Below, piece after piece: positions 7,750 through 47,128 of a DNA stretch of 64,000 nucleotides (the stretch's first letter is position 1; the number at the start of each line of letters is the position of its first letter). The position numbers were made by a program, and so were the translations under genes. The stretch is from Oscillospiraceae bacterium (GTDB taxonomy: Bacteria > Bacillota > Clostridia > Oscillospirales > Oscillospiraceae). The stretch covers positions 1 through 64,000 of the forward strand of contig SVLR01000005.1 in NCBI GenBank assembly GCA_015067785.1, given 5' to 3'. Below the pieces are notes generated by a model. That model ran no database searches. It had not been told where the DNA came from and saw nothing but the letters and a program-made list of their open reading frames with translations.

Positions 7750-7817
7750 ATGTAGGGAACGGATTTATCCGTTCCGTTCATTGCGGGGCGTGGAATGGAT
7801 AAATCCATTCCCTACGA
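7750..7817. repeat. Palindromic intergenic repeat, family B (GTAGGG...CCCTAC)
   Basis: TGTAGGGAACGGATTTATCCGTTCC ... GGAATGGATAAATCCATTCCCTACG. Confidence 0.75.
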
Positions 7818-16495: not shown

Positions 16496-16616
16496 TGTCA
16501 TTGCGAGACCCGAAGGGTCGTGGCAATCTCCCGGTACAATCTGCCAATGCGCTCCTATGGGCGACCATTGGTCGTCCGCTATAACGCAAAAAGGAGAGCC
16601 GCAGCTCTCCTTTTTA
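16496..16616. repeat. Intergenic repeat remnants followed by terminator-like hairpin
   Basis: GTCATTGCGAGACCCGAAGGGTCGTGGCAATCTCC plus GGGCGACCATTGGTCGTCCGC and AAAAAGGAGAGCCGCAGCTCTCCTTTTT. Confidence 0.55.
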
Positions 16617-32701: not shown

Positions 32702-34750
32702 GTGGCATATCTTTCTGACCCTGTTACTATATTAAAAGGTGTCGGCTCCACAAAAGCAAAGCAGCTTGCAGCCCTGAATATCTATACATTGGAGGACCTC
32801 ATCTGCCATTTTCCCCGGGGGTACGAGGACCGCACCAGGATCGTACCGATCTCTGATTTGGAGGTAGACAAACCTGCCTGCTTTAAGGCGGTAGTAATGA
32901 ATACGCCCCGTACCCATCATATAAGGAAGGGTCTCGACATTACCAAGGTGCAGGTGGCGGACCATTCTGGGCGGCTGAAGCTGACCTTTTTTAACCAGAA
33001 ATTCACTGCCGAGCAGCTAAGCTACGGCGAAGAGTATATTTTCTATGGCACGCTCACCGGGGATTATGCCGGCTATCAGGTGACGAGCCCCGTCTTTGAA
33101 CGGCTGGACAGCGCCCCGGTCGTCACCCGCCGAGTGCTGCCGATCTATCCGCTGACTGCCGGTCTTTCCAATGCCACGATGCTAAAGACCATCCGGCAGG
33201 CAATGGCCGTTTGCGATCCGCCGGCAGAGATCATCCCGGAGGCGATCCGCCGGCAGTACGGTATTTTGCCGGCAGACCGGGCATATCAGGCGATCCATAT
33301 GCCGTCTTCTATGGAGGAGGCAGAGCTTGCCAAAAGAAGACTGATCTTTGAAGAATTTTTCGTCTTCTCCGCAGGCCTTAGTTTAATGCGCGCTACCCGT
33401 CAGCAAAAGTGCGTAAAACCCTACGATAAAGGGGATTTATCCGCCTTTATTGGTGCATTACCCTTTGTATTAACCGGAGCCCAAACCCGCGCCATTGAAG
33501 AAATCCGGCGAGATCTTTGCAGCGGCAAGCCCATGAACCGCCTGCTTCAGGGCGATGTGGGCAGCGGTAAGACTATGGTGGCGGCAGCGGCAGCCTATTT
33601 GGCTGTGCAAAACGGTCAGCAGGCAGCCCTGATGGCACCTACCGAAATTTTGGCGGAGCAGCATTATCAGGGGCTAAATAAGCTCCTTTCGCCCTTGGGC
33701 GTGCGCTTACAGCTGCTCACCGGCGGTATGACCGTGAAACAGAAAAAAGAGGGCAGAGAAGCTATGCAGGCCGGTACGGCAGATCTGGTCGTCGGCACCC
33801 ACGCCCTGATCTCGGAGAGCTCCGCTTTTCGGAATTTGGGTCTTGTGATCGCAGACGAGCAGCACCGCTTCGGCGTTGCCCAGCGGCAAGCCCTTGCCTC
33901 GAAAGGCAATGCGCCGCACCTGCTTGTGATGTCGGCTACCCCCATTCCCCGGACGCTGGCGCTGATTATGTATGGCGATCTGGATGTATCAGTATTAGAT
34001 GAGTTGCCTCCCGGACGACAGACGGTAGACACTTTCTTAGTAGGAGAGAATATGCGCACCCGGGTCAATGCCTTCATCCGCAAACAGGCGCAGGAGGGAC
34101 ACCAAAGCTTCGTGGTCTGTCCGGCAGTGGAGGAAGCGGAGGAGCTGAATATAAAGGCCGCTTCCGTTTGGGCAGAGACCCTGCAAAAGACGGTATTCCC
34201 GGATCTGCGGGTATTGCTCATCCACGGACAGATGAAAAGTACCCAGAAAGAGGAAGTAATGGCAGCCTTTGCTGCAGGGCAGGCGGATATTTTGGTTGCC
34301 ACTACAGTCATTGAGGTGGGCGTGGATGTGCCAAACGCAACCTTAATGGTCATTGAGGATGCCGACCGGTTCGGCCTTTCTCAGCTCCATCAGCTCAGAG
34401 GCAGAGTGGGGCGGGGCAAGGCAAAGAGCTACTGCATACTCACTTCTCATAATAAAAATCCTGAGACCCTTTCCCGCTTAAAGGCCCTTTGCGGTACAAA
34501 CGACGGCTTCCGCATCGCAGAGGAGGACCTGCGGCTCCGTGGTCCCGGTGATTTCTTTGGCTCCCGGCAGTCCGGACTTCCGGTGTTCCGGGTTGCAAAT
34601 TTAGCCTGCGATCTGAAGACCTTAAAGGACGCGCAGGCAGCCTCTGCCCGGTGGATCGAGGAGATGGGCACACAAAACACCCCGGAAGGGGAGACGCTTC
34701 GCCGCCGGATCGGCGAGCTGTTCCGGCGAAGTGCAGGTACGATGAATTGA
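32702..34750 (+). CDS. recG: ATP-dependent DNA helicase RecG
   Basis: LLQGDVGSGKTMVAAAAAYLAVQNGQQAALMAPTEILAEQHY...ADEQHRFGVAQR...LRGRVGRGKAKSYC. Confidence 0.97.
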   Translation: MAYLSDPVTILKGVGSTKAKQLAALNIYTLEDLICHFPRGYEDRTRIVPISDLEVDKPACFKAVVMNTPRTHHIRKGLDITKVQVADHSGRLKLTFFNQKFTAEQLSYGEEYIFYGTLTGDYAGYQVTSPVFERLDSAPVVTRRVLPIYPLTAGLSNATMLKTIRQAMAVCDPPAEIIPEAIRRQYGILPADRAYQAIHMPSSMEEAELAKRRLIFEEFFVFSAGLSLMRATRQQKCVKPYDKGDLSAFIGALPFVLTGAQTRAIEEIRRDLCSGKPMNRLLQGDVGSGKTMVAAAAAYLAVQNGQQAALMAPTEILAEQHYQGLNKLLSPLGVRLQLLTGGMTVKQKKEGREAMQAGTADLVVGTHALISESSAFRNLGLVIADEQHRFGVAQRQALASKGNAPHLLVMSATPIPRTLALIMYGDLDVSVLDELPPGRQTVDTFLVGENMRTRVNAFIRKQAQEGHQSFVVCPAVEEAEELNIKAASVWAETLQKTVFPDLRVLLIHGQMKSTQKEEVMAAFAAGQADILVATTVIEVGVDVPNATLMVIEDADRFGLSQLHQLRGRVGRGKAKSYCILTSHNKNPETLSRLKALCGTNDGFRIAEEDLRLRGPGDFFGSRQSGLPVFRVANLACDLKTLKDAQAASARWIEEMGTQNTPEGETLRRRIGELFRRSAGTMN

Positions 34751-34960
34751 GAAATATGCCCGGATGGTCCGCGGGGTCTTTCAGTGAAATTTCTGAGTGT
34801 CATCCTTTCTCCCCGGTGAGAAAGGATGCAAAGACCCGCCGGGAACCTTTCGTATGGTTCCCGGACTCTCCAGACGACCAAAGGGGTTGGCAATGAGGGC
34901 ATTCTTAACGAAAGGTTACATTGCCTGCCCCCTTTGGAAACCCCGGTGAGGCATAATCGC
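34751..34960 (+). ncRNA. Candidate ~200-nt multi-helix structured RNA (raiA-type to be tested first)
   Basis: Nested complementary segments: TATGCC/GGCATA (34755/34950), GCGGGGTCTTT/AAAGACCCGC, CATCCTTTCTC/GAGAAAGGATG, CCGGGAACC/GGTTCCCGG, CCAAAGGGG/CCCCTTTGG, GGCAATG/CATTGCC; no plausible ORF; strong terminator follows. Confidence 0.75.
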
Positions 34961-34996
34961 ATCGGAATCTGTATGATTTACGGTGTCTGCTTATAA

Positions 34997-35045
34997 CCCC
35001 TCCCGGCACTTTAGCCAACTAAAGTGCCGGGAGGGGTGTATTCTT
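34997..35045 (+). terminator. Strong Rho-independent terminator
   Basis: CCCCTCCCGGCACTTTAG-CCAA-CTAAAGTGCCGGGAGGGG then TGTATTCTTTT. Confidence 0.85.
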
Positions 35046-46893: not shown

Positions 46894-46943
46894 GTAGGGG
46901 CGACCATCGGTCGTCCGCGGACGGACAATGCCCGCCCCTACAA
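46894..46943. repeat. Family B palindromic repeat (GTAGGGGCGACC...GCCCCTACAA)
   Basis: GTAGGGGCGACCATCGGTCGTCCGCGGACGGACAATGCCCGCCCCTACAA. Confidence 0.75.
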
Positions 46944-46993: not shown

Positions 46994-47015
46994 TATCTTA
47001 GATCGCAGAACAAAT

Positions 47016-47112
47016 AGTCTTCGGGGGGCCGGATGCATCCGGCTGAGATTTGGCTTGGTAGCCACGACCCGTGAACCTGATACGGTTAGTACCGTCGGAG
47101 GGAAAGATGCAC
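47016..47112 (+). ncRNA. TPP riboswitch (THI element)
   Basis: GGGGGGCC...GGCTGAGATT...GACCCGTGAACCTGATACGGTTAGTACCGTCGGAGGGAAA. Confidence 0.97.
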
Positions 47113-47128
47113 ATATGAGATGCCTTGG

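Follow-up and report, generated by a model that had tools for sequence, protein, structure and literature searches.

Folded segment downstream of recG

The window analyzed here, a 64,000-nucleotide stretch of an Oscillospiraceae bacterium (contig SVLR01000005.1, assembly GCA_015067785.1), carries a highly folded segment directly after the stop codon of recG, which raises the question of whether this segment is an RNA gene, as a first-pass annotation had proposed, or something else. The inverted segments listed in that annotation are present, and their folding is far beyond chance, with z-scores of -4.4 for positions 34745 to 34965, -5.0 for positions 34755 to 34955, and -5.2 for the repeat unit at positions 34800 to 34945 (0 of 200 shuffled sequences folded as well in each case). 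The fold is not fully nested as had been stated, since GACCA (34876 to 34880), the proposed partner of TGGTC at 34765, overlaps the start of CCAAAGGGG (34878 to 34886) in hairpin H3, and base 34839 is used twice, by AAAGACCCGC (34830 to 34839) and by CCGGGAACC. The TGGTC/GACCA pairing is also missing from the minimum-energy fold. A terminator does lie 3' of the fold, with a perfect stem of 19 bp rather than the 18 bp reported, followed by a T-rich tail. No open reading frame accounts for the fold, as had been noted; the sense frame at 34651 to 34896 (81 amino acids) starts within recG and shows no gene-like sign. Inspection of the window sequence 5' of the folded segment revealed no promoter-like site. 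The features of the locus, all on the forward strand, are as follows.

32702 to 34750 (+): recG, with the Pfam domains RecG_wedge, DEAD, and RecG_dom3_C; host gene 5' of the insertion
34751 to 34995 (+): inserted block of 245 bp (repeat unit plus private flanks, including TATGCC of P1), absent at the counterpart site of sister species G017 in a pairwise locus alignment; edges within about 5 bp either way
34771 to 34781 (+): private 5' arm GCGGGGTCTTT, able to pair with 34830 to 34839; a similar arm lies 5' of the two C26 copies only
34800 to 34945 (+): conserved repeat unit of ~146 bp, long three-hairpin form (R1 match, 120.4 bits), with six other copies in the same genome, many in congeners, and unrelated flanks
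34801 to 34828 (+): H1 stem-loop, CATCCTTTCTC (34801 to 34811) with GAGAAAGGATG (34818 to 34828) and loop CCCGGT (34812 to 34817); pairing invariant, both sides changing together (A-U to C-G in the window copy)
34814 to 34838 (+): pseudoknot S2, 34814 to 34817 with 34835 to 34838 across the linker CAAAGA (34829 to 34834); covaries among copies and phyla
34839 to 34864 (+): H2, CCGGGAACC (34839 to 34847) with GGTTCCCGG (34856 to 34864), including one pair changed on both sides (G-C/A-U) in 14 copies
34865 to 34877 (+): conserved linker ACTCTCCAGACGA, invariant or nearly so among the copies of this genome
34878 to 34937 (+): H3, CCAAAGGGG with CCCCTTTGG plus the inner GGCAATG/CATTGCC; compensatory switch from CCAAAGG to CTTAAGG; long and short forms
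34938 to 34945 (+): right end AAACCCCG, with the motif GGAAWCCCC common to the copies
34996 to 35037 (+): intrinsic terminator of recG, host sequence outside the repeat, kept in G017 with compensatory stem changes

Copies, distribution, and empty sites

When the window copy was used to search its own assembly, seven copies were found at six loci, one of which (C26) holds a tandem pair, and flanks and neighboring genes were unrelated at every copy. A covariance model built from these seven copies was then applied to 136 congeneric species genomes, of which 38 were positive, and the motif pattern likewise gave 38. Congeneric genomes carried up to about 15 strong covariance-model copies each, mostly of the ~146-nucleotide form. 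The family found by the covariance model was missed by blastn against 40 relatives. When GTDB species genomes were scanned for exact occurrences of the H1 motif, only Oscillospiraceae metagenome-assembled genomes were returned, and those with a stated source came from ruminant gut. Searches of phage and plasmid DNA with the window copy gave no matches. The element is very probably a dispersed, mobile, noncoding repeat.

Presence and absence could be compared at two of the loci, recG and C26, as intergenic turnover relative to G017 was too high at the remainder. The RecG proteins of the window and of G017 are 93% identical; in G017 the stop codon of recG runs directly into the same terminator, and positions 34751 to 34995 have no counterpart. 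This was read as an empty site, and by this alignment the insertion at recG is recent, postdating the split of the window lineage from its sister species. At the C26 site the tandem pair is likewise absent from G017, which has a GTAG-type palindrome there instead. At a third locus, C49, the left, tRNA-side flank is inverted in G017 (L254, G017:C17, against L002), which suggests a rearrangement at the repeat.

Anatomy of the repeat unit and covariation of its fold

Conservation among the copies is confined to the hairpins H1, H2, and H3 and the linkers joining them; GCGGGGTCTTT and TATGCC (34755 to 34760) lie outside the common region. The order is constant: H1 (CATACTTTCTC/GAGAAAGTATG), CAAAGA, H2 (CCGGGAACC/GGTTCCCGG), the linker GACYCTCCAGACG, H3 (CCAAAGGGG/CCCCTTTGG), and GAAWCCCC. 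Full-length H3 (~146-bp unit) is found in the window and C49 copies, while the remaining copies of this genome have a shortened H3 (~104-bp unit), in which the otherwise variable tip is deleted. Weak matches in further congeners correspond to a two-hairpin form of ~87 nucleotides, with H1, linker, and right end as in the window unit. Other palindromic elements were seen nested in the H2 loop or before H3 at L060 (G098:C32), L072, and L073, enlarging these copies to 256 to 420 bp.

A contact missed by the first-pass annotation is an H-type pseudoknot, in which the H1 loop pairs with bases 3' of the A-rich CAAAGA linker. The window copy keeps three of the four S2 pairs, the outer one being lost (T opposite C at 34817/34835), and may be drifting. 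From its sequence, the private arm GCGGGGTCTTT can pair with AAAGACCCGC in competition with this pseudoknot and can displace it.

In an alignment of 42 copies, of which 38 are distinct, standard pairs made up 98.5% of the paired cells, a value matched by 0 of 500 shuffles, and two-sided changes affected 6 of the 20 pairs (33 cells). Sliding the partners lowered pairing to 35 to 54%. Compensatory changes were seen in H1, H2, H3, and S2, and the signal was retained by H2 and S2 alone; the S2 loop/tail variants were CGGC/GCCG, CGGT/ACCG, CGGA/TCCG, and CGAC/GTCG. Across 69 different combinations of loop and tail, drawn from three phyla (genus copies, two-hairpin relatives, and plasmid copies), mean loop:tail complementarity was 3.80 bp against 2.78 ± 0.09 bp with tails shuffled, and for the 41 distinct loops it was 3.61 against 2.61 ± 0.12 (0 of 5,000 shuffles as high). 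One Ilyobacter copy pairs the loop CTTGAT with the tail ATCAAG, and its siblings have CTTGCC and GGCA. Judged from these substitutions, a single-stranded nucleic acid fold is under selection. The structured fold described in the first-pass annotation is one conserved through compensatory changes, and two of the signs on which that annotation had made its proposal depend, conservation in relatives (38 of 136 congeners) and helix covariation (33 two-sided changes), were both found.

Comparison with known families

The first-pass annotation had named the raiA motif RNA, whose size range is similar to that of the folded segment, as a candidate; cmscan against Rfam gives no raiA match even at E values up to 10. 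The raiA RNAs form a class located next to particular genes and are not a dispersed repeat. Nothing in the window feature reached a gathering threshold, and matches at E values up to 10 were limited to chance-level eukaryotic microRNA and snoRNA models and a few bacterial sRNA and cis-element models. Elsewhere in the window, the Rfam scan located a TPP riboswitch at 47012 to 47120 (+; 72.9 bits).

GTAG REPs and REPINs, which are mobilized by RAYTs, are likewise small, intergenic, palindromic, noncoding mobile repeats occurring singly or as inverted pairs. The window unit differs from them in being much larger, with three hairpins and a pseudoknot, no GTAG tag, and no adjoining RAYT. A test for GTAG/CGTC-tagged palindromes of 20 to 40 bp found no GTAG before H1; GACG precedes H3, although the stem there differs in size and arrangement. 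In ten carrier genomes, the Y1/RAYT genes that were located had no unit nearby. True GTAG REPs flank RAYT-like genes in the same genus (congeners L128 to L131 and L133 to L135) and form a separate, coexisting system. GTAGGG-tagged palindromes also occur in the window, at 46894 to 46941, 7752 to 7815, 48044, and 3394, two of them as REPIN-like inverted pairs. Another dispersed repeat type, the palindrome CATTGCGAG...GGCAATCTCC, is present at 16499 to 16535 and also adjoins copies C26 and C53.

Like bcr1, RUP, NEMIS, and ERIC-type MITEs (70 to 300 bp), the repeat is intergenic, structured, and nonautonomous; unlike them, the 146-bp unit has neither terminal inverted repeats nor a target site duplication. 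It shares with MITEs a noncoding, dispersed, multicopy nature and the occurrence of filled and empty sites between relatives (recG and C26, compared with G017). Inverted repeats do occur as ~115-bp ends in the Burkholderiaceae composites described below. Target site duplications showed no excess over shuffled flanks, and no sharp target motif was seen. The TIRtrons and TIR repeats of tyrosine transposases are described as repeat families that serve as inverted termini of elements carrying a transposase, some of them self-complementary (PMC3733652); no tyrosine transposase flanked by the window motif was found, the comparison being one of description rather than sequence. The intergenic R178 repeats of Pseudomonas fluorescens, which measure 101 bp and contain 11-bp inverted repeats, are also alike by description only (PMC2718517). 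With IS200/IS605-derived elements such as PATE, which move as single-stranded DNA (ssDNA) by a Y1 HUH transposase, the orientation bias of the unit toward the G-rich strand is compatible. Neither the motif string nor a description of the repeat was found in the open-licence PMC literature on bacterial repeats; as this search was confined to open-licence papers, without figures, novelty is provisional, and in behavior the element resembles REP- and MITE-type repeats.

Relatives beyond the genus

A likeness to proteobacterial repeats was tested by searching with a 44-nucleotide consensus, which matched megaplasmids of Caballeronia, Burkholderia, Ralstonia, and Paraburkholderia as well as Ilyobacter (Fusobacteriota). 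Up to 40 pieces were found per record, nearly all with no annotated gene beneath them (several records carry little or no annotation), and loop and tail also pair in the Burkholderiaceae and Ilyobacter matches. In Burkholderiaceae megaplasmids the motif forms the ~115-bp inverted ends of ~650-bp elements, with as many as roughly 28 sites on a single megaplasmid. Of 18 units inspected in Burkholderia sp. THE68 and Caballeronia sp. NK8, 17 are inverted pairs spaced 451 to 481 bp apart, with a CCCC-GGGG hairpin and the pseudoknot inside the long inverted repeats. Matches in Lak phages were rejected as relatives; they have the linker string in common but no H1 hairpin. In G306, of the same class but another family, 89 exact copies of a ACTTTCTTTTTCTATCGTAAAAAGAAAGTAACAAAGA-type motif were noted in a 1.5-Mb genome.

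The ACTTTCTT pseudoknot superfamily is defined here by H1 with CTTTCT/AGAAAG, the CAAAGA linker, and loop:tail pairing; the window copy has H1, CAAAGA, and, as noted, most of S2. We tentatively suggest, while regarding it as rather doubtful, that mobile elements of Bacillota, Pseudomonadota, and Fusobacteriota form one superfamily defined by a single H-type pseudoknot that covaries and has an A-rich linker, recognized by some mobilization enzyme and overlooked as the copies of each genome differ in all but the knot. Overall, it appears to be a type of small mobile DNA that is widespread and little charted. A tertiary contact under selection, present in intergenic repeats from three phyla, makes it a testable question what recognizes the knot, and whether it does so as ssDNA or as RNA.

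RF02421 (Bp1_684), a Burkholderia sRNA family, has no covariance-model match in the window. In a Caballeronia relative (L148), it gives subthreshold matches at both ends of a superfamily element (1428 to 1512 and 2073 to 2177; 42.8 and 41.3 bits against a cutoff of 44), overlapping one H1 arm at one end, with the pseudoknot outside the match. According to its founding paper, the family occurs in phyla far apart, next to genes unrelated to one another (PMC3521395), a distribution that would be as expected of a mobile repeat. A pseudoknot model could be used to reannotate intergenic sRNA candidates, RF02421 among them.

Strand preference and proposed mode of movement

Of 52 units, 37 lie on the strand that is locally richer in G (P = 0.003, although the copies are related and the test is not fully independent), including all seven in this genome; for the coding strand there is no preference (27 of 52). 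A similar G-rich-strand bias was found for GTAG REPs (53 of 84; P = 0.02). The explanation we consider probable as a whole is a pseudoknot repeat that inserted at recG after the species split, with a fold selected as ssDNA or RNA and mobilization most likely in trans as ssDNA. A nonautonomous, noncoding repeat would have inserted between the recG stop codon and terminator; a transposase supplied in trans would recognize its folded H1 end in ssDNA form, much as RAYT and IS200-type enzymes act on REP hairpins, and insertion would be favored on one replication strand. If transcribed, the copy at recG would lie within the 3' UTR of recG, its transcription being presumably passive. The ssDNA, HUH-like step is favored for the selected single-strand fold, the lack of target duplication, and the preference for the G-rich strand with none for the coding strand, and taken alone has a somewhat less than even chance of being correct.

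Alternative explanations

The fold might instead act as RNA in mRNA 3' UTRs, (de)stabilizing transcripts or binding protein as proposed for BOX, NEMIS, and bcr1-type repeats. The A-rich linker is typical of RNA H-type pseudoknots, the window unit sits between the recG stop codon and its terminator, and the sRNA family RF02421, whose founder was tested by RT-PCR (PMC3521395), touches related repeats. Mismatches across copies, however, comprise 7 G-U and 17 A-C, which gives no RNA-strand signature and does not separate folded RNA from folded ssDNA, and orientation tracks GC skew rather than the coding strand; a role at the RNA level is considered unlikely. Far less credible is the stand-alone, trans-acting RNA gene originally proposed: its strong fold and downstream terminator are real, but the seven copies are dispersed among differing neighbors, no promoter-like site was found upstream, Rfam gives no match, and the terminator belongs to recG, being present in G017 where the insert is absent. 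Strong intergenic folds can be mobile repeats, and the combination of folding energy and a terminator does not amount to evidence for an RNA gene.

That the sequence is ancestral and was lost from G017, rather than gained in the window lineage, is improbable; a single close sister was compared and its genome is 84% complete, but neither the covariance model nor the motif pattern found a copy anywhere in G017, and no unit was seen behind recG in other congeners with a readable recG end. It is also highly improbable that the repeat is an attC-like site, folded as a single strand and recombined by an integrase, instead of the end of a transposon. Its hairpins are structure selected and sequence tolerant, and copies stand in tandem at C26; against this, neither an integrase nor a cassette array was seen, no evident gene lies between the two C26 copies, and elsewhere units are single and lie between housekeeping genes.

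Candidate mobilizing enzymes and paired units

For a mobile repeat moved in trans, RAYT/Y1 proteins were considered as the mobilizer and rejected, as their genes occur in some carriers but adjoin GTAG REPs rather than the window-type unit; in 4 of 10 carrier genomes, which are incomplete metagenome assemblies, no Y1 transposase match was obtained. The GTAG REPs flanking RAYT-like genes nevertheless show, going by gene content, that enzymes of a hairpin-recognizing type are present in hosts of the same genus. An autonomous element bounded by inverted units was likewise rejected, since only ordinary genes, and no transposase, were found between paired units. In one such composite (L028 1 to 1200; G145:C39), two inverted units enclose a 179-amino-acid open reading frame resembling an FMN reductase, a function guessed from its sequence, which is probably passenger cargo.
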